Below the pieces are notes generated by a model that ran no database searches, was not told the DNA's origin, and saw only the letters and a program-made list of their open reading frames with translations. DNA of 51,204 nucleotides, from NCBI GenBank assembly GCA_013330595.1, contig DUIB01000063.1, positions 1 to 51,204 on the forward strand, given 5' to 3'. This stretch comes from Candidatus Woesearchaeota archaeon (GTDB lineage: Archaea; Nanobdellota; Nanobdellia; Woesearchaeales; UBA9642). The position numbers and the translations under genes are program-made. This document shows positions 15-46,264 of this stretch, piece after piece. Within the stretch, counting starts at the first letter, position 1. Each line of letters begins with the position of its first letter.

Positions 15-149
15 AATTTTTTATACGTCAGAAATACCACTCATCTATGATGAGTGGAAAAGCCATGCTTATCCTTCTGATATACATGGACTGGTATTTC
101 TGATCGTGATCAAGAACAAACATGATTGCTAGCAATCATGCCACCGGTC
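15..149 (+). repeat. Structured dispersed repeat, copy 1 (inverted relative to 34013-34147)
   Basis: 135 bp matching the reverse complement of 34013-34147 with a single visible mismatch; contains stem TCAGAAATACC/GGTATTTCTGA, inner hairpin ACTCATC-tat-GATGAGT and 20-bp perfect palindrome CATGATTGCTAGCAATCATG. Confidence 0.93.
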
Positions 150-251
150 TTTGACATTTTTTATAAAACATTAAACTGATTTTGGTTGCTGAAAAATAAA
201 ATACAAATTCAAACATAAAACTTTATAAACCGTCCTCAACAACTTTCTCTG

Positions 252-1756: not shown

Positions 1757-1772
1757 ATATAATGAACCTCCC

Positions 1773-2401
1773 CGCCCTAAAGGGCGAGGTATCTAGTGTG
1801 CAAACGAAGTAACTTTCGTTTGTTGGAAATAATTCCAGTGGTTGTTGCTTTCAGCAATGTAATGCTGAATCGTATCAGCAGTAACATTCCCAACACTTCG
1901 ATAAAATTTTCCTGGACTCCAAAAATGTCCTTTGCGAAAATTTTTATATCTTCGAAGCGAAGGATGCTTTTTAAAGAGCTGATATGCACTTCCGCCCTTA
2001 AAAATTTGCAAAGCTTTGCAAACAGGTATTGTTGCTGGAACACCCACAAAAAGATGGATGTGGTCATCCATTACTTTCAGTTCAAAGATTTCAAATCCCC
2101 ATCGCTCGGCGATGGAACGCAAGATTGTATAACAATCTTGGCGTAAGTTTTCCAATCCAAAGATTGGAAAAGCGTACTTTGGTTTCCACACAAGGTGGAA
2201 ACAATTTTGTCCGACAGAATGCCTGTTGTTTGTTAAACCTTCCATTTTCGTTGCCTCCGTGCAACGAAAAATTCATAGCTCACGCTAAATTGATGTGAAA
2301 ATTTAGGTGCGTGTGCCAAAAATTCGGTGCACGCATTATTTATGATTAAAAGAATAGAAAAAGTTAACGGAGGAAAGGACTACAACCCGGCTTGAAAGCC
2401 G
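1773..2401 (-). mobile_element. IS200/IS605-family insertion sequence, TnpA only
   Basis: tnpA flanked by hairpins CGCCCTaaAGGGCG (1773-1786) and CGGCTTgaAAGCCG (2388-2401), both followed by AGGTATC; exact ends not determined. Confidence 0.8.
1793..2245 (-). CDS. tnpA: IS200-like Y1 transposase
   Basis: HUH motif DHIHLFVG and C-terminal Tyr region HFWSPGKFYRSVGN...TIQHYIAES. Confidence 0.92.
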   Translation of the reverse strand: MEGLTNNRHSVGQNCFHLVWKPKYAFPIFGLENLRQDCYTILRSIAERWGFEIFELKVMDDHIHLFVGVPATIPVCKALQIFKGGSAYQLFKKHPSLRRYKNFRKGHFWSPGKFYRSVGNVTADTIQHYIAESNNHWNYFQQTKVTSFAH

Positions 2402-2423
2402 AGGTATCCTTTATATGTAATGA

Positions 2424-3025: not shown

Positions 3026-5434
3026 ATGCACGATTCTATTAACGGATTCATAGTTTATCCTACGTACAGGATTGTTGATGATGAATCAGAGGAGGGCAAA
3101 GCGAAGAGGAGAAAGAAGGCTCTTGTTTATCTATTCGGCAGATTGGAGAATGGTGAATCATTTCTAACAATTAATCATGTCAGGCCGTACTTCTATGTAA
3201 AGACAGAAGATCTTAAAAACACCAAGCTACAGAAGGCATTGAAGGATTTTGATGCTGTTACAGAGGATTCTGATTTCAGGAATTTTGAGGATGAAAACGT
3301 TACAAAGATCATATTATGGATTCCCGCCGATGTCGCTAAGTTCAGGAAGTATCTTGAAGAGATAAACATTGAATGCTATGAGGCTGATATCAGATTCTAT
3401 CAGAGGTTCTTGATAGACAAAGATATTAAAGGATCATTAACAATAAAAGGGGATTTCAAGAAAGGAAACTATGTTGATAGGATCTATGAAGAGCCAGAAT
3501 TAAAAAGTTCTAAATTGATTCCAGACTTAAAGGTCTTGTCAATTGACATTGAAACAGACAGCAAGGCAAAAGGAATATATTGCATCTCATTATATACAGA
3601 AGGATTAAACAATAAATCTTCTTACAAACAAGTGCTTCTTCATGCATCAGACAAGGACATAGGAAAACCATTGCATAATGCAATCTCAATAAATACTGAA
3701 AAAGAGATGCTTGAAAAGTTTTCTGAATTAGTCAAAGAGATTGATCCTGACATAATTACGGGATGGAATGTAATTGATTTTGATTTAAAGCTTATTAAAG
3801 AGAAATTTGACAAATATAATATTCCGTTTACTTTAGGAAGAATTGATTGGCCTTGTAAGATTGAAATTAATGATAGTTTTATGAGAGATTCTTCAGCAGA
3901 TTTTCCTGGAAGAATGGTGCTTGATGGAATACAAATGCTTAGGACAAGCTTTGTCAAACTAGATAATTATAAACTAGAAACAGCAGCTCAAGCATATCTA
4001 GGAGAAAAGAAATTAATAGGACAGAAGAACAAAGCAGAAGAGATCGATAATTTATATAAGAATGATCAGCAAAAATTAGTTGATTATAACCTAAAGGATT
4101 CTGAACTCGTATACAAAATATTATTTAAGACATCTGCAATACAATTAACAATCCAAAGATCAATGATAACAGGAATGACTTTAGAAAGAGTTCGTGCAAG
4201 TGTAGCAAGTCTGGATAGCTTATTCTTAAGATATGCCAAACACCATAAACTTGTTTTGAATAGTACAAAATTCTCTGAAAAAGATGTTCCTTTCAAAGGA
4301 GGCTTTGTTATGAAGTCCAAACCCGGAATATATGATTATGTTTTAGTCCTAGATTTCAAAAGTCTGTATCCTTCAATAATCAGGACATTGAATATTGATC
4401 CATATTCATATGTTAAGAATCCTCCTAAAATTTTGAATAAAGACAAATTTATTCAAGCTGCAAATGGAGCTGTATTCAAGAATCAAGATGGAATACTTCC
4501 AAGCATAATTCAGGACGTATGGAAACAAAGAGATGATGCGAAAAAGAAAAAAGCCCAGGCTCATGTAATATATGCATTAAAGATCATAATGAACTCATTT
4601 TATGGAGTTCTAGGCAACCCTTCTTGCAGGTTCTATAATCCTGCAATGAGCAATGCAATAACATATACTGCAGAAGAGACAATCAAGCTGGCAGCAAAGA
4701 AAGTCGAGGAATTAGGATATGAAGTGATATATTCAGACACTGATTCAATATTTCTCGTCAGCAAAGCAAAAAATATCAGTGATGCAGAGAATATAGGAAA
4801 AAAGATAGAGAAACACGTAAATGATTTTTATGAAGATTACATCAAAGAAAGATATCATAGGAAAAGCTTTTTTGAAATACAATTCGAGAAGCTCTTCAAA
4901 GTATTCTTAATGCCTACAATTCGCGGTTCTGAAGAAGGCGCAAAGAAGAGATATGCGGGTTTATTGATTGTTGATGGAAAGGAAGAGATGAGCTTTACAG
5001 GAATGGAATTTGTCAGAGGAGACTGGACTGAATTAAGCAAGAAGTTCCAGATAGAATTATTTGAAAAAGTCTTCAATAAGGAAGAAGTTTCTGGATATAT
5101 TAAGAAATTTGTTGATGATCTGAAAAAAGGCAAATATGATGATAAATTAATTTATAAGAAAAGCATTAACAAGCCATTATCAGAATACACAAAGACAACT
5201 CCTCCACATGTTAAAGCAGCAAGACAATTGAAGAAACTTACTTCAAATCAAATATTTTACATTATAACGAAAAACGGTCCAGAGCCTGTTGAGAAGCTTA
5301 AACATAAGCCAGATTATGATCATTATATCGATAAGCAATTGAAACCGATTGCTGACACTATTCTTTCTGTATACGGAAAAAACTTTGATGATATATTTAG
5401 AAACTCTACACAATCAAGTCTGTTTGGATATTGA
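3026..5434 (+). CDS. polB: Family B DNA polymerase
   Basis: 802 aa; exo motifs SIDIET and NVIDFDL; pol motifs DFKSLYPSII and YSDTDSIF. Confidence 0.97.
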   Translation: MHDSINGFIVYPTYRIVDDESEEGKAKRRKKALVYLFGRLENGESFLTINHVRPYFYVKTEDLKNTKLQKALKDFDAVTEDSDFRNFEDENVTKIILWIPADVAKFRKYLEEINIECYEADIRFYQRFLIDKDIKGSLTIKGDFKKGNYVDRIYEEPELKSSKLIPDLKVLSIDIETDSKAKGIYCISLYTEGLNNKSSYKQVLLHASDKDIGKPLHNAISINTEKEMLEKFSELVKEIDPDIITGWNVIDFDLKLIKEKFDKYNIPFTLGRIDWPCKIEINDSFMRDSSADFPGRMVLDGIQMLRTSFVKLDNYKLETAAQAYLGEKKLIGQKNKAEEIDNLYKNDQQKLVDYNLKDSELVYKILFKTSAIQLTIQRSMITGMTLERVRASVASLDSLFLRYAKHHKLVLNSTKFSEKDVPFKGGFVMKSKPGIYDYVLVLDFKSLYPSIIRTLNIDPYSYVKNPPKILNKDKFIQAANGAVFKNQDGILPSIIQDVWKQRDDAKKKKAQAHVIYALKIIMNSFYGVLGNPSCRFYNPAMSNAITYTAEETIKLAAKKVEELGYEVIYSDTDSIFLVSKAKNISDAENIGKKIEKHVNDFYEDYIKERYHRKSFFEIQFEKLFKVFLMPTIRGSEEGAKKRYAGLLIVDGKEEMSFTGMEFVRGDWTELSKKFQIELFEKVFNKEEVSGYIKKFVDDLKKGKYDDKLIYKKSINKPLSEYTKTTPPHVKAARQLKKLTSNQIFYIITKNGPEPVEKLKHKPDYDHYIDKQLKPIADTILSVYGKNFDDIFRNSTQSSLFGY

Positions 5435-5511: not shown

Positions 5512-5982
5512 CTAGATCTTTCTCAGAAACTCTCTTGCCTTATCTTCAAACTGATTATTCCAGACTTCTTTTGTTAATAATGTTAATGTTGCTCTTGGTT
5601 TTTTTCCAATAAGCTTCTGCATTACAGCGAATGATCTCTTGCTTCCTGATCCTCCCATTGTGCAGAAGAATGATATTGATTTATTCTTGAGAATGTCCTT
5701 ATTTTCCTTAATATAAATCCTTAATGCAGGAGTTATTGTCCATGCCCATACTGGATTTCCCAAAATAATAATATCATAATCCTGAGGATTTCTTTTTAAT
5801 GGTTGTATCTTTGTGATCTTTTTTAAAGAAGCATCTTTTCCTGCTGTAATGTATCTTATTGGACCAGCACGGTTTTTCTTGTCAATAATCTCTTCAATAT
5901 GTGCGCTCATCCTATTAGCCATGTATTCAGCCACTTTTTTTGTTGTTCCTGTCCTAGAATAATATACTACGAGTATTTTCAT
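5512..5982 (-). CDS. Flavodoxin-like protein
   Basis: N-terminal MKILVVYYSRTGTTKKVAEYMA FMN-binding motif. Confidence 0.88.
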   Translation of the reverse strand: MKILVVYYSRTGTTKKVAEYMANRMSAHIEEIIDKKNRAGPIRYITAGKDASLKKITKIQPLKRNPQDYDIIILGNPVWAWTITPALRIYIKENKDILKNKSISFFCTMGGSGSKRSFAVMQKLIGKKPRATLTLLTKEVWNNQFEDKAREFLRKI

Positions 5983-8438: not shown

Positions 8439-8594
8439 GGGCGTGTAGCGCAGCTTGGATACTTCGCTTCTGGGCGAAGGCTCAGGCGCAGCCAGAGAGC
8501 GCGAAGCACTCCTAAAACCTTTTTGCAAGCAAAAAGCTTTACCAAAAAGGCAGAAGAGATGCTTAGGTCGTGGGTTCGAATCCCATCACGCCCG
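8439..8594 (+). tRNA. tRNA-Arg(CCT) candidate with two introns (8461-8497 in D-loop; 8515-8558 in anticodon loop)
   Basis: Acceptor GGGCGTG/CACGCCC, T-arm GTGGG-TTCGAAT-CCCAT, anticodon stem AAGCA/TGCTT with loop CTCCTAA after removal of 44 nt, D-arm GCGC-AGCTTGGATA-GCGC after removal of 37 nt; discriminator G. Confidence 0.8.
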
Positions 8595-9536: not shown

Positions 9537-11819
9537 CTATTGATGAGCTTGGGCAAGTAATTCTTCAATCGACTCCCATCTTTCCTGTCTTCCTGTAAGC
9601 AAATAATTACACCTGAAATCAAGTGTGCTGTTAGCATAGCATCTATTACATAAATCCTCAGTATAAGTCTCCCTGCATTTCATGCCTAACTTTTCATTTA
9701 ATCCAAACAAATGCTTATTCATCACCCATTCAATAATCCAATCTGTTTTAATATCTCTCATGAAACCACTATTTAGCATTATCTCCTTTATTCTTATCTT
9801 TTCATGACGATAATTTCCCTTGTCAATCAACGGTTTTTTGGTGTAAAAACTCCGTAAGAACTCTTTCGTATCAGTCCCTGAGATAGTATCTAAATACTTA
9901 GTAGAACTAAAAGGTGTTTGAACTATGACAGTGTAAATCCTGTCTGCATCTAATTTTAAGCCATTAATAACCATTAGTCCATATCTTGATGCCTGCTTAA
10001 AAAAATATTGGACAGGATAATATCTTGCAACTCTTCTTTTGAAATCAATTATTATTGGATTATCTCCTGTAATTGCTACAGCATCTGGTCTTCCCCCATC
10101 ATCAATAGTAACATCTTGCTCCTGCAATCCTTCTATCTTATCGATAGTCATAGCAAATAACGGATTATTTGATTTGGACAATCTTTTCTCCAGTTCATCG
10201 ACAGCAAGATTCCAATCATGCTGCGTAGGCTTATAATAATTTTTTATTGGAACCTCGCAATATTTGCTCCTATCCATAGGCTCAATACCTAGTTTATCAA
10301 GAAAATATTTTTGATCTTCTCCTAATTCATTTGCTATTTTATGTCTTATGCTTCCACTAATGGCTTCATCATTCTTCTCAATCTCAAAAGGGTATTCTCT
10401 CTCCATAACGTTTATATACTTAATAAAAGGGCATTCATGTGAAGTGTTGCTAGGCCTTGTCATTCGTATGGAATCATTGAATAATAAACTTATATCTAAT
10501 GGCTTGACCATTTCTTTTTTTGTTTTCTGCCAGCTCTTATCAGCATTCTTATCTGCATGAACAGGAAAATTATTCTCATTCAAGAAATAGATAATGACCT
10601 CTATTGGGGATATTCTGACTTGATATTTAATTATATCATCTTCAAGCTTCTTGACCATAGAATAGGGGATTTCACTTAACTCTCCCTCAATATCTTTTAC
10701 ATCCCCTCCTGCATATATGTAAGGGTATTTGGATGATGTGAACAATTCATGTCTTTCATGAAAGGCTTTTTGCTTAATAATCACAGCTTCATTACTATTG
10801 CCATATTTGGCATTAAGCCATCCTGATAATCTGTTTAAGGCCTGAGGTTCCAATACTCCTCTTATAGGGATATTTTTTGTATCCTGCAATAGTTTTACTC
10901 CGATAATATGTTTTTCTAACTCAGGAAGATTGTTCCTTATTATTCCTTCTATCAGGTCATTAGCTATGTTTCCTTGAGTCATAAAACCATCATAAACCCG
11001 GATATTTAATTCCTTAAGTATAGAAGAGTATTTTTGTTTGAGAATCTCTCTATTAAGAGAAATTGCAGTATCGCAGAGCCTCTTAAAATCATCCATGCTA
11101 GGAACATTGAATATCGTGTCTTGATATTTACTTTTATAGGTATAGTATAATGTCTCTAGATAATAAGGCTCTTTATTAACTTGCTCATTGAATTTCTTTA
11201 TAGAAAAAACTGATTCAGCAACATTATAATTTTCAAGTCTTTGATCATCATCATAATATCTCTCATAATCTCCCAGCAATGATTTGTGTTTTTTTTCAAG
11301 CCAAGAATTAATACTCACTATACTATCGCTGAATGGATTGATGATCTTCGTTCCTTCCTGGCCTGTCTGTATCATAAATGGGAATTCAAAAGGCGCATGT
11401 CTGAAAAACACTATATTCTCAATTCCTTGTTTGACAACAGGATTATATTTATCATAGATCTCCATTAAATATGTGGCAAAATCTGTTTTTGTGCAGAAAT
11501 CATCTGTGTTGACATGCTTAAAAAATCCTAATGGACTTTCCAGGCCAAGATTAAACATTCCAAGCCAAACAATATCATTATTCTTAATGATATCAATATT
11601 CTCAGCCACAGATTCCTGCAACAATAGATATTTCTCCATAATGCCAACAAAGTTTCTTTCCTCTTGCCTATCTGTTGCCTGGTCAATCAGAAACTCTATA
11701 TTGTCTTTTTTTACGCCCTTTGGATCTAATTTTGTTGAATCAACCCATATCTTATGAGTGTATATTAGCCTAGAAAGAGTGCTTATCGGATTAGATAATG
11801 AGTATATAGATGCAAGCAT
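9537..11819 (-). CDS. Cas4/RecB-like PD-(D/E)XK nuclease, predicted Fe-S
   Basis: GSIRHKIANEL, GGRPDAVAITGDNPIIIDFKRR (nuclease core), QASRYGLMV; one upstream Cys (ECPFIKYINV) and C-terminal Cys trio (LCNRCYANSTLDFRC). Confidence 0.75.
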   Translation of the reverse strand: MLASIYSLSNPISTLSRLIYTHKIWVDSTKLDPKGVKKDNIEFLIDQATDRQEERNFVGIMEKYLLLQESVAENIDIIKNNDIVWLGMFNLGLESPLGFFKHVNTDDFCTKTDFATYLMEIYDKYNPVVKQGIENIVFFRHAPFEFPFMIQTGQEGTKIINPFSDSIVSINSWLEKKHKSLLGDYERYYDDDQRLENYNVAESVFSIKKFNEQVNKEPYYLETLYYTYKSKYQDTIFNVPSMDDFKRLCDTAISLNREILKQKYSSILKELNIRVYDGFMTQGNIANDLIEGIIRNNLPELEKHIIGVKLLQDTKNIPIRGVLEPQALNRLSGWLNAKYGNSNEAVIIKQKAFHERHELFTSSKYPYIYAGGDVKDIEGELSEIPYSMVKKLEDDIIKYQVRISPIEVIIYFLNENNFPVHADKNADKSWQKTKKEMVKPLDISLLFNDSIRMTRPSNTSHECPFIKYINVMEREYPFEIEKNDEAISGSIRHKIANELGEDQKYFLDKLGIEPMDRSKYCEVPIKNYYKPTQHDWNLAVDELEKRLSKSNNPLFAMTIDKIEGLQEQDVTIDDGGRPDAVAITGDNPIIIDFKRRVARYYPVQYFFKQASRYGLMVINGLKLDADRIYTVIVQTPFSSTKYLDTISGTDTKEFLRSFYTKKPLIDKGNYRHEKIRIKEIMLNSGFMRDIKTDWIIEWVMNKHLFGLNEKLGMKCRETYTEDLCNRCYANSTLDFRCNYLLTGRQERWESIEELLAQAHQ

Positions 11820-11906
11820 TTTCTCCCAACCAATTATGATTTTTTAACTACTTTCAAATAAATAATAATTCGATAACTATATATACTATATATATTTTTT
11901 GCTTAT

Positions 11907-14414
11907 ATGCTCTTAACCCATGTAGAAATAAAAGGCCAGAAGATAGATACAGAGAAAATTATATTTTATGGAAGAAATAATGATGGCTTGGAGAAGTTAG
12001 AAGAAGAGATATATAGTTTCAATACATTGTTCAATGACCTGAGACCGACAAAGGTTTTCGCACTATCATATTCTACATCAGAAGATGTCCTTAAAAAAAG
12101 ATTAATTGACCTTGAATCAAACCAGGCCTTCAAAAAACTAAATTTCAAAACAATAAAAAAAGATGAGAATTATATTATTTATGCTGAAGGCAACACAAAA
12201 ATATTGAAAAAATTGCCTGCATATTTCAAGATAAAGCCAGGTTCCAATAACTTCTCAAGTGTTGAATTGCTAAGAAAGCAACTCAGATTCCCATTTTCAT
12301 TAATAAAGAAGCATAATGCTATCTGGATGGTTGATAGGCAATTGTCATTAGATGAATTCCTGATGCTTAATTCAGCTTCATTAGACAGTGAATTCATGCA
12401 TTGGGAAAAAGAGAAAAAAGTAGATTACCTAAATAACAGCAGAGAACAGAAAATGGATTTCTTAACAAACACATATAATATTTTAACAGGACAAGAGAGT
12501 GAAGATGAATTAACAAAAAAGATAGTAGATTTTTTTAATGAAAATAAAGGTAAACAGGGAATAATTGATAAGCCCCTGTCTGTTTCATTGGCAATCAATA
12601 AAAAAAATATCCGAATCGATGCCGACAATAAAATGAATTACGATCTTTGCATCGATAAAGTCTATCATTTATGCCATCTGGGGGAAGAATCTCAAGATAT
12701 GATGATGGATCTGGCTACGGGAAAAACTAATGTCATATTCATCAAAAACCAAGATGAATTAGAGATGATAAAGAGATTGAATTTGGCTGTTGAGAAAGAA
12801 AAAATACTGATCTTTCTGACACAAAACGGGCCAAAATATGATCTTCCAAAATTAAGAGAATTTGGCCTGAAATTTTTCAATGAAATGCCTGAGATAAAGA
12901 GTTCTGCAGGATTCTTTTATCAGACAATCATAAAAGGAAATATAATACTTGACTTAGCATCTTATTCTCAAAATTATTTTCCATGGACCATAGATAATAA
13001 ATATGCGACAATCATAAAGCTGATAACTGGAATGGATTTTGAAAAAAGCATCACATATGATGATCAGACAAGATTGACTCTCGAAGCAATCCTTGGAAAT
13101 AATGAATCTATAAAAATCATGAGGAAATATGATGTTGAGGATGTAACAGGAATGTCTATGACTGAAAAATATATCCTGCCGATGATATACTTTAAGAGCA
13201 AGATAGCAAGAACAAGTCCAGAAGTGATCAATGTGACATCAAAGGCAAATTGGGCATTGGATCTTTACAGGTATGAGTATCTGCTTGAAGGAAAAGGTTT
13301 CTGGACAGTAACAAAATATAAAGAATATAACAAGTTTCAAACATTCGATAAATTCAAAAAATTAGTGAAAGAATATGAATCAATGAGGGAAAAACCTAAG
13401 AGAATAAATGTTGTGAAAAATTTCACCCGCGGGGCATTGTTCTACATTGCTCCTTTTACATCAATTCATCACCACGAGATACAAAAAAAAACAGCGATAA
13501 AGGAGGCTTTTGATTATCTGAAAAGGCCCGATGCCACAAATCTGGAGAAGATCGATCTGATTTTGACAATAGAAGAAGGCTATTTAAAGCCATATCTATT
13601 TGATAATTCTTTAAACAAAAGTTCCCGTGAAAAAGATATTGTCAACCAATTCAGAAATCTTGTAAGAGCATTTCCCCCTATAAATAATAATGATAACTAT
13701 TATTGCTTCAAAATCAGAGATTCAGAACATCCTTATTTCAAGGAAAATATGAAAGGATTAGGAATAGAACTTTCCAGAGGAAAATTCTTTAATGTAAAAA
13801 AAGGTTCATTTATATTGTATGATGAAAGAAATTTCTACAAGAAGGATATTGATGCCAAAGGAAAAGCAGGATACAAAACTATTTATCAGCAGGAGCTAAT
13901 TCATGATTATATAGAATTATTATTCAAGAAAGGCCCTGATGAAGCTATTAAGACAATTGTTGAATTCTTCAAAAAGCTTAACAATAATTCTTTGGATAGA
14001 AACAAAATGATTTATTTTAAAGAAAGCATGATAAAGGATTATTTTGATTATTCAAGTTATGCTCAACAGCAAGAGAGAGTTCAAGCATATATTGAATTAG
14101 GATTAAAAAAAGATGAAAAGGCGGCATTTTTTAAATTAGGCAAGGTACATGTGCCTTTAGAGCATTTTGAGCAAATGCCAGATAGTTATATTTTTAGCGA
14201 TAAGATAAAAGATCAGCTTATACAGGATTATCTAGGAACTATTGAAAAACGTAATATCAATATGCAAGAAGGCAAGATAGGAAAATATATTCAACCATTG
14301 GCTAAGTATTATGGATTAAATAAAAATTTATTTTCTAGATTCATATTAGCAGGGGATTATGAGAGCATAGTTCATAACAAGAAAGACCTGTTCTCAGATA
14401 TATTTAAAGAGTAA
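11907..14414 (+). CDS. Divergent, apparently inactivated PolB-like protein
   Basis: 835 aa; NGPKYDLPKL resembles exo II, YDVED resembles exo III, TSKANWALDLYRYEYLLEGKGF resembles the post-exo region; canonical pol motifs DxxSLYPS and DTDS absent. Confidence 0.55.
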   Translation: MLLTHVEIKGQKIDTEKIIFYGRNNDGLEKLEEEIYSFNTLFNDLRPTKVFALSYSTSEDVLKKRLIDLESNQAFKKLNFKTIKKDENYIIYAEGNTKILKKLPAYFKIKPGSNNFSSVELLRKQLRFPFSLIKKHNAIWMVDRQLSLDEFLMLNSASLDSEFMHWEKEKKVDYLNNSREQKMDFLTNTYNILTGQESEDELTKKIVDFFNENKGKQGIIDKPLSVSLAINKKNIRIDADNKMNYDLCIDKVYHLCHLGEESQDMMMDLATGKTNVIFIKNQDELEMIKRLNLAVEKEKILIFLTQNGPKYDLPKLREFGLKFFNEMPEIKSSAGFFYQTIIKGNIILDLASYSQNYFPWTIDNKYATIIKLITGMDFEKSITYDDQTRLTLEAILGNNESIKIMRKYDVEDVTGMSMTEKYILPMIYFKSKIARTSPEVINVTSKANWALDLYRYEYLLEGKGFWTVTKYKEYNKFQTFDKFKKLVKEYESMREKPKRINVVKNFTRGALFYIAPFTSIHHHEIQKKTAIKEAFDYLKRPDATNLEKIDLILTIEEGYLKPYLFDNSLNKSSREKDIVNQFRNLVRAFPPINNNDNYYCFKIRDSEHPYFKENMKGLGIELSRGKFFNVKKGSFILYDERNFYKKDIDAKGKAGYKTIYQQELIHDYIELLFKKGPDEAIKTIVEFFKKLNNNSLDRNKMIYFKESMIKDYFDYSSYAQQQERVQAYIELGLKKDEKAAFFKLGKVHVPLEHFEQMPDSYIFSDKIKDQLIQDYLGTIEKRNINMQEGKIGKYIQPLAKYYGLNKNLFSRFILAGDYESIVHNKKDLFSDIFKE

Positions 14415-21395: not shown

Positions 21396-21518
21396 TGAGA
21401 TATATTATATCAAATATTTTTGATTTTGGGAGAGATAAATGTATTAATATTTTTAATAATATTTTTCGACTTTTGAACCGTAAACTTTATTAATCAGTGA
21501 CTATTGCTAGATAGTAAC

Positions 21519-22421
21519 ATGAAAGTTGCGCTTATTAAGGATAATTCAGCACCTTTTGATACAAGAAATTGGCACGATATTTACGCAGAGCACTTTCGTG
21601 ATATGGGTGTATCTACAGTTTTTCTAGATCCAAACAAAAGTTCTTTCATTGATGATGCTGTAAGCACTGCTTGCGGTGCATATTTATGGAGGGTATGGCA
21701 TGTCCCGCAGGATCGTATAGATGCAACAAGAAAAATACGTTTCTTGGAGAAAGAATGCGGTCTTCTTATGTTTCCTACTCATAGGATGTTAGAAGATTAT
21801 GATGATAAAGCAAGCGAATTATTTTTTATGCGCAAACAAAAATATCCAATTCCCGAAACATTTTTTACGCGCTCTAGTGAAGAAGCTAAAGATTATTGTC
21901 AAACATGTGCTTTACCAATAGTATCTAAAGCATATGATGGTGCTTCAGGTGATAATGTTCGTTTGCTTAATAATCGGGATTCATTAATTTCCCATGTAAA
22001 TGATGCATTCAGTCAAACTGGGATAAAAACACATTTTTCAGGAAGCGTTCAACAAGGATATATATTCCTACAAAAATATATTCCTTGTAAAAAAGACATG
22101 AAAATTATAGTAATAGGTGAAGAAGTCGCTTTAAGCTATTGGCGAAAAGGTTTAGAGTGGAAACATAATATAAGCAGTGGTGGAAGTATAGATACTACGC
22201 CTATACCTGAGCAAGCTAAACAATTAGCTGTTCAAATAACAAAAGATCTTAAATATGATTGGTGTGGACTAGATTTTATAGAACATGACAATCGTATATT
22301 TCTTATAGAGTATGGTTCTATGTTTGCCATTACGCCTAGATTTATTCCCATCTTTGGAAGTATAGATGCAGATATGTTACGAAAACAATGCGAATTGGTT
22401 GTTAAGAGGATAAAAAAATGA
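21519..22421 (+). CDS. ATP-grasp family protein
   Basis: LPIVSKAYDGASGDNVRLLNN, GYIFLQKYIPCKKDMKIIVIG, YDWCGLDFIEHDNRIFLIEYG. Confidence 0.82.
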   Translation: MKVALIKDNSAPFDTRNWHDIYAEHFRDMGVSTVFLDPNKSSFIDDAVSTACGAYLWRVWHVPQDRIDATRKIRFLEKECGLLMFPTHRMLEDYDDKASELFFMRKQKYPIPETFFTRSSEEAKDYCQTCALPIVSKAYDGASGDNVRLLNNRDSLISHVNDAFSQTGIKTHFSGSVQQGYIFLQKYIPCKKDMKIIVIGEEVALSYWRKGLEWKHNISSGGSIDTTPIPEQAKQLAVQITKDLKYDWCGLDFIEHDNRIFLIEYGSMFAITPRFIPIFGSIDADMLRKQCELVVKRIKK

Positions 22422-23437
22422 TACGGTATGGCATTATAGGTTATGGTGATGCAGGAATGGTGCATCAAAAAGTTATTTCCAGACTTTCGAATATAGCAGA
22501 ACTAACAGCAATTTATGATATTGATGAGAACAAAAAAGAAATGATCGAAAATAAGTTGAATGGTGTTTTTGCTGTAGATAATATTAATCAATTATTAAAG
22601 TATGTAGATGCAGTGTCTATATGCACCCCGCATAATACACACTATAAACTAGCAGAGGAATTACTATTGAATGGGAAAGATGTTCTAATAGAGAAACCTG
22701 TTGCTATAAAATTAGATGATGCGCAAAAATTGGCGTATATTGCACAACAAGAAAACCGTGTGACAGCCACTATATTTCAACATAGGTATGAACCAGTAAA
22801 TGTTTGGATTAAAGAGCATTTGGACTTAGGAAAATTAGGAGACCTATTAAGTATCTCTGTCCAGATTAAATGGTCCAAACATTCAAATTATTATGATTCT
22901 TGGAAAGGAAAATTAGATGAAGCAGGAGGAGGAGTTCTAATTAATCAAGCAATTCATTTTATAGATTTAGCTAATTGGTTCGGAGATGGCATAAAAGAAG
23001 TATATACAAATAATATTCAGCACAGATCTATAGAAGTTGAAGATAACGCCATAGTTTCTCTAAAATTTAAATCTGATGCTATAGGATTAATAGATGCATC
23101 AACCTCTGCCCAGAAACATATTGGGACCACAGTAGAAATTGTTGGTACAAAAGACACCATAAAAACTTATGAAGGAAGAATACTTGCTTGGACATCAAAA
23201 TCCGATAATGATATAGTTAATATGAATGCGCACATAGCTAGTATAGATGCTGAAACATGGGGTAAAAAATATTTTGGTCATGGACATATATATCAAATAG
23301 AAGAATTTGTTAAAAGATGTATAGATAGAATGCCCCCACAGATAGGAGTCTTAGAAGGTGCCAAAACTCTTGCAGTAGTATTAAGCATGTATGAAAGTAT
23401 GCGATTGAAACAACCAGTCAAGGTGAACTATCTATGA
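22418..23437 (+). CDS. Gfo/Idh/MocA-family oxidoreductase
   Basis: GIIGYGDAGMVH; AVSICTPHNTHYKLAEELLLNGKDVLIEKPVA. Confidence 0.93.
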   Translation: MIRYGIIGYGDAGMVHQKVISRLSNIAELTAIYDIDENKKEMIENKLNGVFAVDNINQLLKYVDAVSICTPHNTHYKLAEELLLNGKDVLIEKPVAIKLDDAQKLAYIAQQENRVTATIFQHRYEPVNVWIKEHLDLGKLGDLLSISVQIKWSKHSNYYDSWKGKLDEAGGGVLINQAIHFIDLANWFGDGIKEVYTNNIQHRSIEVEDNAIVSLKFKSDAIGLIDASTSAQKHIGTTVEIVGTKDTIKTYEGRILAWTSKSDNDIVNMNAHIASIDAETWGKKYFGHGHIYQIEEFVKRCIDRMPPQIGVLEGAKTLAVVLSMYESMRLKQPVKVNYL

Positions 23438-24534
23438 AAATAGAACCATACCAAAAGGATGCTCTAATAAAATATATTAATCAAGAAGGATCTTGCTCAT
23501 CACCAAGCTGTGAAGGAGCAATCGCAACTTTTGAAAAAAGTATTGCAGAATATTTTAAAAGAAAATATGTTTTACTAACAGTAAATGGAACAAGCGCTCT
23601 TATGTTAGCATATTTATCTACAGGAGTGTCTCGCAACACGCCTGTGATAGTACCACAATATGCGCACTATGCCGCAATTCATCCTCTTAAAAATATAACT
23701 GATAAAATAATTCCTATTCCTGTTGACTCAGAGACACTAGAAATGAATATAGAATTAGTGGGAAAGGCTTTCAAAAAACTTCATAATGCCCCTAAACCAG
23801 CTCTTCTTAATGTAGTAATGACAGGATTCTGTACGAACAGCACAAATCTAAGAAAACTTTGTGATACATATGATGCAATATATATAGAGGATTGCAGTAG
23901 GGCATATCTTTGTAACGATGATGGAATATTAGGTACTAAAGGCGATGTTAGTTGTTTCTCAATGCAGGGTAGCAAAGCACTTTGTGCTGGTGAAGGCGGA
24001 TTATTCTTAACAGATAATCAAAGCAATTATGAACATGCTGTTCAACTAGCCTTTCCTGGTAGAACAAAACACACAGGAACAATAAATGAGAATACTTTTG
24101 AATCATCTATATACCCTTTTAAGCTTAGACCTAGTCCTATAATTGCTGTCATTGCGCATTCGCAATTACCTTATCTTGAGGAACGTGTAAATAATTCAAG
24201 AAAAAATCTAAAATTGCTTGCAGACGCCCTTGAAGAGAATATGGATTTAAATGTAATTCATAAGGAATCTATACATAAAAAAGGAGGATGGAAAGATGCA
24301 TGCATAAAATGTCAAGATGCCGAATATGCAACACATTTTGTGTCAATACTTAAAAATATTGGTGTGCAAGCTAGATTAGAGTTCTCCGATGCTTTTGTAG
24401 ATATAGATGATTATTCTATCTATTCTAATTTGGTTTTATTAGAAGGATTTAGTGGCTACAAAAAAGCAGATGAAAATCATATTAACCAAATAAATAAAAT
24501 AGCTACAGCTGCAAAAATGTTAAAAGGAAAATAA
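23434..24534 (+). CDS. DegT/DnrJ/EryC1/StrS-family aminotransferase
   Basis: VLLTVNGTSALMLAY; VSCFSMQGSKALCAGEGGLFLT (PLP-lysine region). Confidence 0.92.
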   Translation: MKIEPYQKDALIKYINQEGSCSSPSCEGAIATFEKSIAEYFKRKYVLLTVNGTSALMLAYLSTGVSRNTPVIVPQYAHYAAIHPLKNITDKIIPIPVDSETLEMNIELVGKAFKKLHNAPKPALLNVVMTGFCTNSTNLRKLCDTYDAIYIEDCSRAYLCNDDGILGTKGDVSCFSMQGSKALCAGEGGLFLTDNQSNYEHAVQLAFPGRTKHTGTINENTFESSIYPFKLRPSPIIAVIAHSQLPYLEERVNNSRKNLKLLADALEENMDLNVIHKESIHKKGGWKDACIKCQDAEYATHFVSILKNIGVQARLEFSDAFVDIDDYSIYSNLVLLEGFSGYKKADENHINQINKIATAAKMLKGK

Positions 24535-24535
24535 A

Positions 24536-25915
24536 ATGAATGGATCTCAAGAAATACTAATATTATCATTAGGTCCCGTCTTTAGGAATTATGTACATGG
24601 GGGATCGCAAAAGATATTGCGAGATGTAGCCGTATATTTAGGAAAATCTAATAATGTAACAATATTGTGTAATCGTAGAAGAGATAATAAAGACACATTT
24701 ATGCTCGGAGAAAATGTAACTGTAAAACCTATACTACAATTTAAAGAAACTTTTCCCGAAGCATATAATGCACCACCATATAAACTTGCATTCTCACGCG
24801 AAATAATAAAAAATCATGTTACGAAAAGCGATGTTGTATATATGCATGACGCAGGTATACTATTTCATGATATATTTGATGATGTACCATTAGTGATATC
24901 TCCAAGAGACTTTCTATATCCTGAGACTCTCCTTGGTGTTTTGAATTTTAAAAGAGATAAAATGATTGTGACAACACAATACATGAAGGACTGTGTTCTT
25001 GCATTAACTGATTCAGTATCAAATTTAGAGAATAAAATCGAAGTGATACCTAACGGAGTAAATTCTGAACTTTTTCATTATAAGAATCCATCATCATTAA
25101 GAAACGAATTAGGAATTAAAGACACTGTAACCCTCTTATATCCTCATAGAACTCCAACCAAAGGTTTACCTTTTGCTTTAGAAGTAACGAAAAGACTTAT
25201 ATCTGAAGGCATGAATGTGGCACTTCTTATTCCAAACTATATAGATTCATTAATAAATGAGGATATAAAGAACACATATAAAATTCTAAAGAAAACTATT
25301 ACTGCATGGAATCTTGATTCTTATGTTTTTATACATGATTGGATACCTCAAGAGAGAATGCCTGAATATTATTCTCTAGGAGATGTTACTTTATGTTTAG
25401 GTACTTTTCCTGAATCTTTTGGGAATGTTACACTCGAATCTCTTATGTGCGGCACTCCTGTAGTAGCTTCTAAGGTTGCAGCTCAAAGAGAAGTGATTCC
25501 TGATTCGATGATGCCGAAAGTTGATCCATTTAATGTTGAAGAAATGACAAACCTTACAAAGAAATTTATTGCTAATAAACCTGACTTGCGAGATGTTCGT
25601 CAATATATATTGGATAAATATAATTATGTTAATATGCTTGAAGGATATTCACAAGTATTGAGATCTTTCGGAACAAGAATCAAAAACACTCAATCAGATA
25701 ATTTTTCACATTCTTTTCTTAAAATAGCTCCCTGGTGCTATTTGAAAAATGATGGTATTTATAATGATTATACAGAAAATACTGCTTATCCTGATATAGC
25801 TGTTGCATTTGCAAATGGAGATCGCGTATCCTATAACTCGTTAAAAGATTTAGTAAATCCAAAAAGAATATCTGATGCATTATTAGAAGGATTTATTAGA
25901 GGATCAAATGCTTGA
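24536..25915 (+). CDS. Glycosyltransferase, GT4-like
   Basis: VIPNGVNSELF; FPESFGNVTLESLMCGTPVVASKV. Confidence 0.9.
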   Translation: MNGSQEILILSLGPVFRNYVHGGSQKILRDVAVYLGKSNNVTILCNRRRDNKDTFMLGENVTVKPILQFKETFPEAYNAPPYKLAFSREIIKNHVTKSDVVYMHDAGILFHDIFDDVPLVISPRDFLYPETLLGVLNFKRDKMIVTTQYMKDCVLALTDSVSNLENKIEVIPNGVNSELFHYKNPSSLRNELGIKDTVTLLYPHRTPTKGLPFALEVTKRLISEGMNVALLIPNYIDSLINEDIKNTYKILKKTITAWNLDSYVFIHDWIPQERMPEYYSLGDVTLCLGTFPESFGNVTLESLMCGTPVVASKVAAQREVIPDSMMPKVDPFNVEEMTNLTKKFIANKPDLRDVRQYILDKYNYVNMLEGYSQVLRSFGTRIKNTQSDNFSHSFLKIAPWCYLKNDGIYNDYTENTAYPDIAVAFANGDRVSYNSLKDLVNPKRISDALLEGFIRGSNA

Positions 25916-26912
25916 AGACTTATGTATACATATAGGAAATCGAAACGGACTAAAGACTTTAACATCTAACAAGTCAAGATTATATTACCTATTTTCATCA
26001 CTCATTAAACATGTTCCAAATATAAATCATGCAGAAGTATTATTTTCTGATAATGAATCAGAAGATGATTCCTGCAATTTTTTCAAAAAATTAGGAATAG
26101 GAACAATTGTAAATCGTCCAATTATAAGAGTTGAACCTAAATGGTTACAAACAACACTAAATAATCAACTAAACATATCCGATGCAATACAACAGACAAA
26201 CAAAAAGTTTTTTTGGAATATTGAAAACGATAGCTACTTTTTTCGCTCAGAATTTATACAGCAAGCATTAGATGTACTATCAACTCGAGAAGACATTGTA
26301 ATTGTGAACCTTAGATACTGGATATCATTAGATAAAAAAGATTGGATAGGAATCCCAAAAAATCTTTCTAGGTATGATGCCTGTTCGAAAACTCCATCAG
26401 GTACTACGTTTTATGAACTTGAAAGACGAGATTGTGATGTTTTATGGATTGATGTAACGAACGATATTTCACAAGATTTTTGTTTTGATGATAAATATGA
26501 TCCTATGCATTGTGTGTTGTCTGACGAACTTAAAGTTGGTAATATAAGAAATACTCCTGATGGTAAATATCAACGATTACTTAACGAGCATTGGAACACA
26601 TATGCTAGTCATGGATATATCGCACGTACAGATACGCTACGTTTTATTATTGAACGATATCAACCATTATCAGAGCGGAATATGTCTATGATGGTTCGTA
26701 AGCATTTCAAGGCAGCTAAGTTAGAGATGGATGCCTTTTTTTCATTCGGTTGGAATAAACGAGTTCAGAATGTTAATGAAAAAGATATAGAAAAAATGAT
26801 TTTATATTGTGAAAATACCCCTTGTTCATCAATGAAAGAAATCGGAACATTTATTAATTCATCGAATGTAACAATTTATAATGAAAGTCAATCGCGTGTA
26901 TCAATACTCTGA
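25908..26912 (+). CDS. Putative glycosyltransferase or hypothetical
   Basis: Operon context; KKFFWNIENDSYFF suggests a GT-A-like acidic motif, weak. Confidence 0.45.
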   Translation: MLEDLCIHIGNRNGLKTLTSNKSRLYYLFSSLIKHVPNINHAEVLFSDNESEDDSCNFFKKLGIGTIVNRPIIRVEPKWLQTTLNNQLNISDAIQQTNKKFFWNIENDSYFFRSEFIQQALDVLSTREDIVIVNLRYWISLDKKDWIGIPKNLSRYDACSKTPSGTTFYELERRDCDVLWIDVTNDISQDFCFDDKYDPMHCVLSDELKVGNIRNTPDGKYQRLLNEHWNTYASHGYIARTDTLRFIIERYQPLSERNMSMMVRKHFKAAKLEMDAFFSFGWNKRVQNVNEKDIEKMILYCENTPCSSMKEIGTFINSSNVTIYNESQSRVSIL

Positions 26913-27612
26913 TGAGTTTACAGGAAAACTGGCATCTTACGATAAAAGGAAGAAGCCTTCTTGGATACAATTCGAATCTGATATAAAAATTCAATTCTTA
27001 AGAGCTGATCATGAGGGTGTTCAATACTGGTATAGAAGATATTTTCAAGATTATTTCTTAATTTTGAATGCTACACCAAATGATTATGCTTCATACTATG
27101 ATGAGATAGCGCACTCTTACGACACAATGGTGCCTCAGAATGTGCAACTTGCAGATTTTATAATCGAAAAAATGCATACTCTCATAGCTAAAAATGCACA
27201 TATTCTTGAATTATCAGCAGGTACAGGTATTCTTTCGAAAAAAATAGTGCCTGAATGGTCTAACCTTACAATTACAGATATATCCCCTAAATGTCTTGAG
27301 ATTGCAAAAACAGAAACTCATTTGTCAGATGAAAATATTATAGTAGCAGATGTTTTGAAATTCAATACAGAAAAGAAATTTGATGCCATAGTTGAGTTAA
27401 TGGGTTTGGATTATTTTTCTGACGATGAGATAGAAAAAATAGCAAATAATGTCTTGTCTAAAATCCATAAAAATGGGGTATTAGTATTTGTTGATAGACA
27501 TCATTATTCTTCTTTCGAAAAAAGATTAAAAGTATTAGAAAAGGGTTTTTTTGATATGGAGACTCCTACAGGTAAATTTCCTTATGCATACATGATCGCA
27601 ATTAAAGAATAA
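26881..27612 (+). CDS. Class I SAM-dependent methyltransferase
   Basis: ILELSAGTGILSKKI; LTITDISPKCLEIAK; FDAIVELMGLDYFSDDE. Confidence 0.87.
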   Translation: MKVNRVYQYSDEFTGKLASYDKRKKPSWIQFESDIKIQFLRADHEGVQYWYRRYFQDYFLILNATPNDYASYYDEIAHSYDTMVPQNVQLADFIIEKMHTLIAKNAHILELSAGTGILSKKIVPEWSNLTITDISPKCLEIAKTETHLSDENIIVADVLKFNTEKKFDAIVELMGLDYFSDDEIEKIANNVLSKIHKNGVLVFVDRHHYSSFEKRLKVLEKGFFDMETPTGKFPYAYMIAIKE

Positions 27613-27731
27613 TATACATTTTTATTAATAACCCTGTTCGGATTCGTATTCCTTTGTGCTTGGGTGTGTCGTAACCCTGCAACTTATTGTTAAAAATCTG
27701 TTTTTCTTCGACGATAGTACGTCGTTCTCGG

Positions 27732-27821
27732 ATTTGGGCAGGGCTATTGCTGTCTGGGTGATCCTGCAGGGTCGATTTCCACTGCGGGACACTTCCTTAT
27801 TTTTCACACGATATCACACCA
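27732..27821. repeat. ~90-bp direct repeat, copy 2
   Basis: GGGCAGGGCTATTGCTGTCTGGGTGATCCTGC...CACACGATATCACACCATT. Confidence 0.92.
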
Positions 27822-28095
27822 TTCTACAGAAAACTACGAAAAAAATATAAATCGACTATTCTTCTCACGTTTTACGATTAAAACCGTTATTTTTCAATCT
27901 AAATGATGTAATTACTGTGGTTTATGAACAATTGCCAGAGCTAATATACAATAAAAGAAACAATCTCCACTCGTAATTGACAAGACCAAGGCAATAGAAA
28001 TCATTGAAGAGATGAAACTTACACGTTTCCAAAAGCTTAAATGAAATAATGAAAAGGTATTTTCGATACTATGCGAAAGAAATAAAACGAATGAC

Positions 28096-29313
28096 GTGAT
28101 AAAGAACAAACCAATACACATATTGATTGCTATATTCTCTACTTTAGTGACAACACTCATTCAGATTCTGATTTCGTTATTGCAAAAAATATTTCTAGGA
28201 ATTATTGACATAGTACTATTATTTTTGTTTTTTTGGAAAATATTGCATTATCCCATAGCAAAAACTATTATTATAGTAATACTGATAGAAACCGTATTAA
28301 TTTTGCTAAGCAACATTAAATTATATATAGAAAGTATCCAAACTGAATATTTTTCTGTGCTAGATGGTTTCAGATTTCAACAAATAATAACACAGAATTC
28401 TAAAGATAAGGAAAGACCGCATACGTCACCAAGAATCACCATAAATAAAGAACAATATATTGTTATAGAGTATGGAGATTATATTAATCCTAATAGAAGT
28501 GAAAATGTTACAGGATTTTTGATTTTGGATCATAAAACAGGTAGAATCATAAGAAATGAAAATGAATTAAAGGATGTTATAAAAGTTTACAAATGTTGGA
28601 GGTACATCTATCTCAATCCATTATTAGGCAAAAAAATAAAACTATCACCGCAGATCATTAAAAGTATGCTTAAATTTCAAAATAATTTTGTGAGTTTGAT
28701 AAATAAAAGAATATCAAATAATTACAAAGAAGTATCAACTATTGAGGATGAAGAGTTAATCAACATGTTGAAAGAACTAGATCAACAAGTAATTCTTCAA
28801 TACCAGTACGTGAAGGAAAAACTAGAAAGGGAATATAAACTACTTAAGGCAATTACTATCATACATAGCAATCCATCTCTAGAATTCTATCAAGAAATAA
28901 TAAATGATATTAATATAGTATCTAAAATGAGTCAAGAAGAAAACAAAATATGGCAAGAAAGACAAAAAACTTGGAGAAAATTATATAAATACGAAAAAAT
29001 AAAAATAGAAAAATTACCAGAACCGAACTATAAATCAATAAGTTTAGGAATAATTGGAGATTTAATAAACTATTTCTTATTTAAAAAAGAAGAATACCCT
29101 ATAAGTAAAGATACCATGATAGAACTAACAATGGAAGGAAGTAAAAAAACAAAAAAAGAATTAATGAAATTATTAAACAAATATGTGACATATCATTTTT
29201 TTGGCATAAAGGCTATTGAAAAAAATATTGAATTAAATAACGAACTTAAAAAAATAAGAGACACATATAACCAAATCTGGAGTTATAATGATATATCAAA
29301 TGTGCGAAATTAA
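28096..29313 (+). CDS. Hypothetical membrane-anchored protein
   Basis: 405 aa with N-terminal TM segments. Confidence 0.5.
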   Translation: MIKNKPIHILIAIFSTLVTTLIQILISLLQKIFLGIIDIVLLFLFFWKILHYPIAKTIIIVILIETVLILLSNIKLYIESIQTEYFSVLDGFRFQQIITQNSKDKERPHTSPRITINKEQYIVIEYGDYINPNRSENVTGFLILDHKTGRIIRNENELKDVIKVYKCWRYIYLNPLLGKKIKLSPQIIKSMLKFQNNFVSLINKRISNNYKEVSTIEDEELINMLKELDQQVILQYQYVKEKLEREYKLLKAITIIHSNPSLEFYQEIINDINIVSKMSQEENKIWQERQKTWRKLYKYEKIKIEKLPEPNYKSISLGIIGDLINYFLFKKEEYPISKDTMIELTMEGSKKTKKELMKLLNKYVTYHFFGIKAIEKNIELNNELKKIRDTYNQIWSYNDISNVRN

Positions 29314-29548
29314 TAAGATATATCTAATTATAGTGTATTATTTTACAAAAGAGCATAAATTCTAGTCCAGTATTAACTCCGATGTTACTAAAGTAAGTTC
29401 CAAAGTTAGCCAATCCCTCCATACAAATTTATCGACTAGAACCACAACCTTTTAAGTTTTCATTCTAGAGATCTGACACTATTAAGCACAATGAAGTCAA
29501 AAAAATTTGGATATTAATGAATTTATATTTTAATATTCTGGAATAAAA

Positions 29549-29606
29549 CTTGGACAGGACTATTACTACTTGTGTGATCCTGTGGCTTCGATTTTTCTAC
29601 CAAGAC
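29549..29606. repeat. Degenerate copy 3 of the 21305/27732 repeat
   Basis: TTGGACAGGACTATTACTACTTGTGTGATCCTGTGGCTTCGATTTTTCTACCAAGAC aligns to the left half of copies 1 and 2. Confidence 0.65.
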
Positions 29607-29935
29607 TGTGGTGCAGATAATAATGTATAAATCCAGTATATAATTAATGACAGTATTATGGTTGTTAATAACAATCCTAGCCACCAATTAAATATTTTTT
29701 TGTACATCTCATTTCTATCCTCAATATCATATGTAGTTCGGTGTGTTTCTTCAAGTTTGTTTGAGGCTAAATCGTGTAATGTCCAACATGCTAGCGATAT
29801 AAATAATATTATTAAACTATCAACCAAGAATATGGTTTTGTTATACCCTATTATTTTTCCTGTTATAGCTAGAAGAAATATAATGAATGATAAACCTGTT
29901 GTGGCAGTGTATGCTGTTTTATAGCTAACGTTCAT
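29597..29935 (-). CDS. Small hypothetical membrane protein
   Basis: 112 aa with three to four TM segments. Confidence 0.5.
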   Translation of the reverse strand: MNVSYKTAYTATTGLSFIIFLLAITGKIIGYNKTIFLVDSLIILFISLACWTLHDLASNKLEETHRTTYDIEDRNEMYKKIFNWWLGLLLTTIILSLIIYWIYTLLSAPQSW

Positions 29936-30054
29936 ATTGTGTATAGCAAGAGGTATTTTATAAAGGTATATTTTTTAGGTAGTCTTTTTATATTTCTTTT
30001 TGGTAATACGTTTTCCGAGTTTTCTATATTAATGCTGGTAACCTTTATTTTTTT

Positions 30055-30774
30055 ATGGAGTTGAATAAGATTGCTTGTATGGATTGTCTTGAGTATTTGG
30101 GGCAGATTCCTGACAATTTTGTCGACCTTGTGGTGACAGATCCCCCGTATAATGTTTCTCAAAAAAATAATTTAAAATTTGGAGGGAGAGTTATTATTAA
30201 GAATTTTGGTGATTGGGATTTTGGCTTTGATCCTGTGCCTGTTTTAGCCGAATTACGCCGAATTCTCAAACCAAATGGGCAAATATACGTCTTCTGCGGA
30301 ACCGAGCAAATTCCAATTTATATACGAGAATTTATAGAAAACTGGTTCTTCAGAAATCTACTTGTTTGGTATAAAACTAATCCTCCGCCAAGAATGAGCA
30401 AAACAAACTACCTTTTTGCAAACGAATATATAATCTACGCTATAAAAGAAAAGGGAAAGCCTTCTTTATCCACATTTAATTTTTCCTCCCAGTCAACAAT
30501 GCACAACACCTTCATATCGGGAGCACTACAAGGAAAAGAACGATTAAAGGGTAAAAATGGCATGGCAATACATCCAACACAAAAACCATTGGCTATTCTA
30601 AAAAAGTTAATTGAAGTATCAAGCAATCCTGGAGATATAATCCTTGATCCATTTATGGGAATAGGATCAACAGCAGTAGCATGCAAAGAACTAAAAAGAA
30701 AATTCATAGGATGCGAATTAAATCCTAAATATGTGGCATGGGCAAACAGCAGATTAAATACTAGAAATAATTAG
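30055..30774 (+). CDS. DNA adenine/cytosine-N4 methyltransferase
   Basis: VVTDPPYNVSQ and ILDPFMGIGSTAVACKELKRKFIGCE motifs (DPPY before FxGxG). Confidence 0.92.
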   Translation: MELNKIACMDCLEYLGQIPDNFVDLVVTDPPYNVSQKNNLKFGGRVIIKNFGDWDFGFDPVPVLAELRRILKPNGQIYVFCGTEQIPIYIREFIENWFFRNLLVWYKTNPPPRMSKTNYLFANEYIIYAIKEKGKPSLSTFNFSSQSTMHNTFISGALQGKERLKGKNGMAIHPTQKPLAILKKLIEVSSNPGDIILDPFMGIGSTAVACKELKRKFIGCELNPKYVAWANSRLNTRNN

Positions 30775-30863
30775 ATTTTCTTTATTCACCACTGGACATT
30801 TAAGCACAAGATTTATAAAATCTACAAATATTTACAAATAATCGTATTTGTGGGGTGTAAATC

Positions 30864-31010
30864 ATGGGCGATAGCAAAAGAAAAAATGTCACCATACACA
30901 TAGATTCTGACTTGTATGAACTATACTCAGATTATTGCAAAAAAGAAGGACTTGTTTTGTCAAGACAAATAGAAAAATTTATTGAAAAAGAATTGAAAAA
31001 AAATGAATAA
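30864..31010 (+). CDS. Ribbon-helix-helix-like small protein
   Basis: MGDSKRKNVTIHIDSDLYELYSDYCKKEGLVLSRQIEKFIEKELKKNE; 48 aa, overlaps the next gene by 8 bp. Confidence 0.65.
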   Translation: MGDSKRKNVTIHIDSDLYELYSDYCKKEGLVLSRQIEKFIEKELKKNE

Positions 31011-33864: not shown

Positions 33865-34012
33865 ACAGGAAGTAAATATGCTTTTCTTTATATGCGTTTC
33901 TCAAGAAAAATCGTAAATTTTTCGAAGGATCCGAAAAAAAATGTCAAGAACCACCGGTCAAATGCACAAAATCACAGATTTTGGCACGCTGAAAATGTCT
34001 TCATTTTCATCG

Positions 34013-34147
34013 GACCGGTGGCATGATTGCTAGCAATCATGCTTGTTCTTGATCACGATCAGAAATACCAGTCCATGTATATCAGAAGGATAAGCATGGC
34101 TTTTCCACTCATCATAGATGAGTGGTATTTCTGACGTATAAAAAATT
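34013..34147 (-). repeat. Structured dispersed repeat, copy 2
   Basis: Reverse complement of 15-149; abuts the stop codon of the KaiC-like gene. Confidence 0.93.
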
Positions 34148-46176: not shown

Positions 46177-46264
46177 CGACCCTGGAGAGATTCGACCTCT
46201 CGACCTTCTGATTGCTGCATAGATGAATAACAGTCAGACGCTCTAACCTCTAAGCTACAGGGTC
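46177..46264 (-). tRNA. tRNA-Asn(GTT) with a 15-nt intron (46213-46227)
   Basis: Acceptor GACCCTG/CAGGGTC, anticodon arm TCTGA-CTGTTA[intron]A-TCAGA, T-arm GAGAG-GTCGAAT-CTCTC. Confidence 0.9.

Follow-up and report, generated by a model that had tools for sequence, protein, structure and literature searches.

Mobile hairpins of the REP/REPIN type are known from bacteria; for Archaea, a published survey of Y1 proteins lists no type other than IS200 (PMC6006769). For the bacterial REPINs, which go with RAYT transposases, the replicating unit is proposed to be an inverted doublet that can fold in two ways (PMC3116915). A further group of bacterial REPs, tagged by CGTC/TGTC (Di Nocera 2013), has stems of 8-9 bp that begin with two A-T pairs, loops of 4-5 nt and a CCA tail (PMC3733652). 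ISDra2, of the IS200/IS605 type, inserts 3' of TTGAT (PMC2806898). The Rickettsia palindromic elements (RPEs) sit in-frame in essential genes and add peptide segments to them (review PMC10969869).

We analysed a hairpin repeat that is present twice in a 51,204-nt stretch of Woesearchaeota DNA (the window). The repeat belongs to a real archaeal family that is undescribed in the literature searched; this literature (subscription papers and preprints lay outside its scope) gave no earlier description of the element, of its centre word or of an archaeal RPE or REPIN. The unit consists of two back-to-back inverted hairpins with a single bulged base each, and its ends are TGTCA/TGACA.

Like REPINs, the archaeal element is short, gene-less, intergenic and multi-copy, has two inverted hairpins per unit, and combines alternative single- and double-hairpin folds with a proposed single-strand mobilisation in trans (PMC3116915). 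In contrast to the unpaired GTAG of REPINs, its TGTC tag sits in the stem. Its loops run from 3 to >90 nt with nested hairpins, and no RAYT was found. GTAG or GTGG is absent from the hairpin foot; the element ends in TGTC or CGTC. These ends are shared with the CGTC/TGTC-tagged REPs, which also form inverted dimers, are partly intragenic and have no known dedicated transposase (PMC3733652). However, the archaeal element pairs TGTC within a stem that has a bulge, the pairs after TGTC are A-T and then G-C, and it has long loops and a GAGCA/GATCA tail.

The IS200/IS605 elements resemble it in having a target on one side only, 5' of the left end (for ISDra2, TTGAT; PMC2806898), a right end resembling this target, hairpins at or near both ends and no target duplication. 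They differ in that the archaeal element has no internal transposase, its hairpins are inverted to each other, no unpaired guide tetranucleotide is evident outside its hairpin foot, and the Y1 elements that were inspected in these genomes have other ends. With RPEs it shares the palindromic make-up and the in-frame insertions in essential genes that add peptide segments, but its architecture differs, as its sequence probably does, its host is an archaeon, and only 5 of 79 classified copies lie in an open frame. The family works like REPINs and RPEs and is a member of neither as defined.

The repeat unit, its fold and its copies

The preliminary description had reported a near-identical inverted pair of 135-bp elements. 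Indeed, 15-149 and the reverse complement of 34013-34147 are 134/135 identical, with one A/G difference (BLAST E 1e-64). The sequence also contains the stems, the dyad GATCGTGATC and the palindrome of 20 bp that were claimed for it. The 135-bp length did not hold as the repeat unit, as this frame cuts the element inside hairpin 2. The minus strand past 34013 runs on to ...GACCGGTGGTTCTTGACA, which closes the second hairpin domain, and the complete unit (W2) is therefore 195 nt long, with TTTATA preceding it. The features of the two window copies, W1 and W2, are as follows.

33942-34136, minus strand: W2, complete long-subfamily copy, CGTCAG ... TTCTTGACA, 195 nt (ends from copy comparison; DNA fold z -11.9)
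34137-34142, minus strand: TTTATA, a hexamer that flanks W2 on the left and resembles the target (consensus of the family TTRAHA, from the left-flank motif in 95 copies)
34056-34136, minus strand: domain 1 of W2, a hairpin that contains inner hairpins and is closed by the outer stem CG-TCAGAAATACC / GGTATTTCTGA-t-CG (folds; stem covariation)
34050-34061, minus strand: centre TGATCGTGATCA, junction of the two inverted hairpins (core motif search)
33942-34055, minus strand: domain 2 of W2, a hairpin closed by the outer stem TG-a-TCAAGAAC / GTTCTTGACA (folds; covariation)
34022-34041, minus strand: perfect 20-bp palindrome CATGATTGCTAGCAATCATG within domain 2 (sequence)
33960-34012 (approximate limits), minus strand: optional two-hairpin module in the domain 2 loop, missing from short copies (copy comparison)
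26-156, plus strand: W1, second copy, 3' arm truncated (without CCGGTGGTTCTTGA), contig start (copy comparison; model match 25-157, E 5e-9)
20-25, plus strand: TTTATA, left flank of W1 (unreliable, since 1-14 are common to several contig ends)

W2 folds into two adjacent branched domains with z-scores of -9.1 as RNA and -11.9 as DNA, and 0 shuffles were as stable. This DNA fold and at least 25 copies with unrelated flanks exclude chance. Both stems are backed by compensatory changes. In 18 trimmed copies, 98.7% of cells pair. The same copies show 22 double-sided changes compared with 4.9 in shuffles (0/500 as high), and slid controls of this test collapse. The long subfamily has C at its first position, which pairs with G in the centre. 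Among 82 distinct rows from many genomes, a freely varying purine of hairpin 2 faces its partner as G-C in 34 rows and as A-T in 42, with 0 mismatches. This set was fetched by the centre alone, and its centre conservation is no evidence because the search imposed it. G-T pairs are in mild excess over A-C pairs (24 vs 11). The 20-bp palindrome is altered in sequence in other copies and is palindromic still.

About 50 copies are present in this 1.35-Mb MAG, comprising at least 25 recent, near-identical copies of the long subfamily and about 25 older ones. BLAST against the genome, the suggested copy-number check, was combined with end-motif scans; for the long subfamily, whose copies have unrelated flanks, the left junctions number at least 25 distinct ones and the right junctions about 25, many of them at contig ends or scaffold gaps. 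Searching with the central word TTTCTGATCNTGATCAAGAAC brought in older copies with very different loops. The core common to all copies is TGTCAGAAAT-X-ATTTCTGA(k)CA.TG(m)TCAAGAAC-Y-GTTCTTGACA, where k is T/G, m is A/C, and X and Y measure 3-62 nt and 4-94 nt, respectively, in the copies extracted. The element ends drawn from the long subfamily alone were replaced by TGTCA/TGACA after the older copies were compared. A covariance model has about 30 matches in the genome; some 25 of these do not belong to the long subfamily, and the weakest are near E = 0.01; the stretches around the matches were used for the genome analysis.

The loops are built of modules. Copies differ in whether they have a block of two hairpins between CCGGTC and GACCGG, and likewise in a second variable block at GATC|GTGATC. 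Copies nested inside copies were seen at four loci (L309 and L311 in G051, L188 and L132); thus, the element can insert into its own kind and become larger. The Y loops of three copies (L200, L204, L209) carry CCGCCCTTTAGGGCGG hairpins that resemble the right-end hairpins of these archaea's IS200 elements, which suggests an exchange of hairpin modules.

Arrangement of the pair in the window

W1 stands at the contig start, and its 3' arm is short by 14 nt (without CCGGTGGTTCTTGA). The first 14 window bases recur at the ends of three other contigs (C69, C57 and C20) and agree with the left flank of C35. We consider the left junction of W1 unreliable, owing to these shared bases and to the missing CCGGTGGTTCTTGA at the 3' end. 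The possibility that the repeat as such is an assembly artefact does not hold, though W1 is at a contig edge, as W2 is located mid-contig and copies occur in dozens of other genomes.

In the congener G005, ferredoxin and DNA polymerase B, the orthologs of window ~254-446 and 3026-5434, respectively, come directly after KaiC, which is 90% identical to its ortholog at 34147-34977, with no element between. Polymerase B is downstream of KaiC in G003 too, in the same orientation. In the window, KaiC and the ferredoxin/polymerase B genes are at opposite ends of the 34-kb W1-W2 interval. An inversion of 150-34012 by recombination of the two copies had been envisaged before, and inverting this segment would indeed give the gene order of G005 and G003; however, a misjoin at W2 explains the order equally. 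We give even odds to the W1-W2 arrangement being an assembly misjoin at the repeat, with no biological inverted pair 34 kb apart. W1 at the contig end, its 14-nt flank common to other contigs, and the direct adjacency of KaiC to ferredoxin and polymerase B in G005 speak for the misjoin, but W2 is complete, mid-contig and free of N, and a real inversion between the copies would produce the identical picture.

The interval also holds a run of genes of ATP-grasp-like, oxidoreductase, aminotransferase and glycosyltransferase-like type, after which come DNA methyltransferase genes (21504-32610). No orthologs of these were found in the ~100-120 kb examined per congener, and therefore they are possibly an island inside the 34-kb interval. 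Elsewhere in the window, two large divergent adjacent ORFs of 760 and 835 aa (9537-14414) have no Pfam match. Two tRNA genes, at 8439-8594 (plus strand; 156 nt, probably with an intron) and 46177-46264 (minus strand), were found by Rfam and missed by ARAGORN.

Insertion sites, interrupted genes and distribution

We aligned 95 complete copies without redundancy, using the core to orient them. The left flank has the consensus T T R A H A at -6 to -1, with A at -3 and at -1 in 85/95 and T at -5 in 76/95; this left motif resembles TTGACA, with which the element itself ends on the right. In the same copies, no position of the right flank exceeds 0.14 bit. No target duplication was found in the flanks examined (long-subfamily junctions and the 95 copies).

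Several copies interrupt genes. Excising TGTCAG..TTGACA reopens the frame of a CN hydrolase (161 nt, L186; PF00795, 102.8 bits) and that of an unnamed protein (71 nt, L209). Two further genes, one for a YhcG nuclease in the genome that the window comes from (L091) and one for a Y1 transposase in G065 (L286), regain their frames only when the boundary is shifted by 1 nt. The latter gene (G065:C112:10655-11084) is interrupted by an element variant with the right end GGATGA. The JAGVXP loci carry in-frame copies of 54 nt in GatA, 108 nt in GatD and 54 nt in GatE, located as follows.

L185:3105-3158; L200:3881-3988 and 5803-5856: in-frame Gat copies, in tRNA amidotransferase subunits of one Woesearchaeota genome

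Aligning the three subunits with solved homologues, we find that the extra Gat residues fall exactly in the gaps of the latter; the predicted peptide within GatA is MSEIQRISEHAQKPLVFD. The three in-frame copies of this one genome are an odd concentration in one pathway. Among the 79 classified copies, 43 are in a codirectional, 15 in a divergent and 13 in a convergent intergenic context, 5 are inside ORFs and 3 are incomplete. The strand of the copies relative to genes is split 29 vs 14 and that of the control 121 vs 82, so the skew is no greater than in the control.

The element is absent at the KaiC-ferredoxin junction of G005; neither a strain-level empty site nor an excision product was seen. 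The earlier suggestion of a MITE/REP-like mobile element is backed by the many near-identical copies, their unrelated flanks, the one-sided motif, the reopened frames and the empty G005 junction, and the mobility of the element is well supported.

Plain BLAST gave no match in relatives because the loops diverge, and the core-motif search and the covariance model were used instead. The core is matched at E <= 0.01 in 65 of the 118 sampled genomes of the order (Woesearchaeota), with none to 41 matches per genome, some places being counted on both strands. In a phylum-wide sample, 64 of 279 genomes match at E <= 1e-5; these comprise genomes of the order and eight others from its class, and other classes are absent among the matches listed. 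Named records with the element are nearly all Woesearchaeota. Two centre-pattern matches outside the group (L179, L208) were rejected as chance, since their hairpin arms are missing. Viral contigs yielded 0 matches to the centre pattern, and spread by viruses was rejected on this ground.

Mobilisation and rival readings

The one-sided target resembling the right end, the hairpin ends and the lack of duplication are marks of single-strand insertion of the IS200/IS605 kind. From these features and the REPIN-like inverted doublet, we infer mobilisation in trans by an HUH transposase acting on single-stranded DNA. Our main reading, to which we assign a probability of about 0.65, is a non-autonomous, REPIN-like element that inserts like IS200/IS605 through single-stranded DNA, with an HUH/Y1-type transposase supplied in trans. 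The enzyme would recognise the folded hairpins on single-stranded DNA, cutting after TTRAH(A) in the left flank and after TTGAC(A) at the right end. The strand would then be inserted 3' of another TTRAHA in the IS200/IS605 manner, as proposed for REPINs. Hairpin modules in the loops may be gained and lost, partly through nesting, and some in-frame insertions may be retained as peptide insertions.

We searched for the mobilising enzyme. Y1 transposases are found in 40 of the 118 genomes of the order. The element occurs in 25/40 genomes with Y1 compared with 40/78 without it, and so the 118 genomes show no genome-level association. In several high-copy genomes, no Y1 was found. Incomplete assembly of repeated transposase genes could hide such an association. 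The element model matches beside 0 of 31 Y1 loci, and ends shared with an autonomous Y1-transposase element were not found among the Y1 elements inspected. Descent from the window IS200 or the other Y1 elements inspected was rejected, as the ends differ. IS91/Y2 mobilisation was dismissed with PF04986 in just 2/118 genomes. An autonomous version with a gene between the hairpins was discarded as well; the isolated half-elements seen in the loci examined are decayed or nested copies.

The window itself contains an ordinary IS200 (1760-2420, minus strand) with an intact Y1 transposase (1793-2245), classic GC-rich end hairpins and ends unlike those of the repeat; the congener G004 has a relative of it (86% over 662 bp). 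The Y1 protein matches IS200 NF033573 with 109 bits and stays below the cut-off for the REP transposase NF047646 (28 of 80 bits). At G000:C29:270-787 (L033), a second Y1 gene, broken by a TGA, has a branched GC-rich hairpin behind it, and directly after this hairpin lies a gap-interrupted repeat copy at TTGATA.

Among the other readings of the family, a classic MITE with short terminal inverted repeats TGTCA/TGACA, a DDE transposase and a duplicated target is unlikely. The ends TGTCA(A)GAA and TTCTTGACA do form imperfect inverted repeats, and the copies are short and gene-less, but target duplication is absent, the flank motif is one-sided, and the interrupted frames reopen without an extra duplicated stretch. 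We think it improbable that TGTCA ... TGAGCATGCTCA ... TGACA is a site for protein binding or chromosome organisation whose spread or maintenance serves a host function. Such a site would fit the outer and central words, which are conserved and nearly palindromic order-wide (the centre being ascertained by search); however, copy number varies from none to ~40 matches among the genomes of the order, and the polar left-flank motif would be left unexplained. The structured RNA of the preliminary description, or a transcription terminator under selection at many loci, is very improbable despite the very stable folds on both strands and the compensatory changes, because no credible Rfam family matches (the window gives the two tRNAs only, and the best hit at W2 is GcvB with 14 bits vs a threshold of 42), the 43:15:13 context and the strand counts reveal no strand or 3'-end bias beyond the control, copies lie inside coding genes, recent copies are near-identical, and the excess of G-T over A-C pairs is mild.

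Beyond single-strand mobilisation in trans, we tentatively propose that the family may be an ancient counterpart of REPINs and RPEs in Woesearchaeales. It would use a single-stranded DNA route with an enzyme that is neither a recognised RAYT nor Y1, grow by nesting and donate in-frame peptides to essential proteins.

That REPIN-like logic occurs across an archaeal order points to a wider spread of mobility based on hairpins. The element family helps explain the fragmentation of these MAGs and offers a handle on rearrangement in small archaeal genomes. The GatA, GatD and GatE proteins of one species are testable cases of selfish DNA turned into a protein segment.
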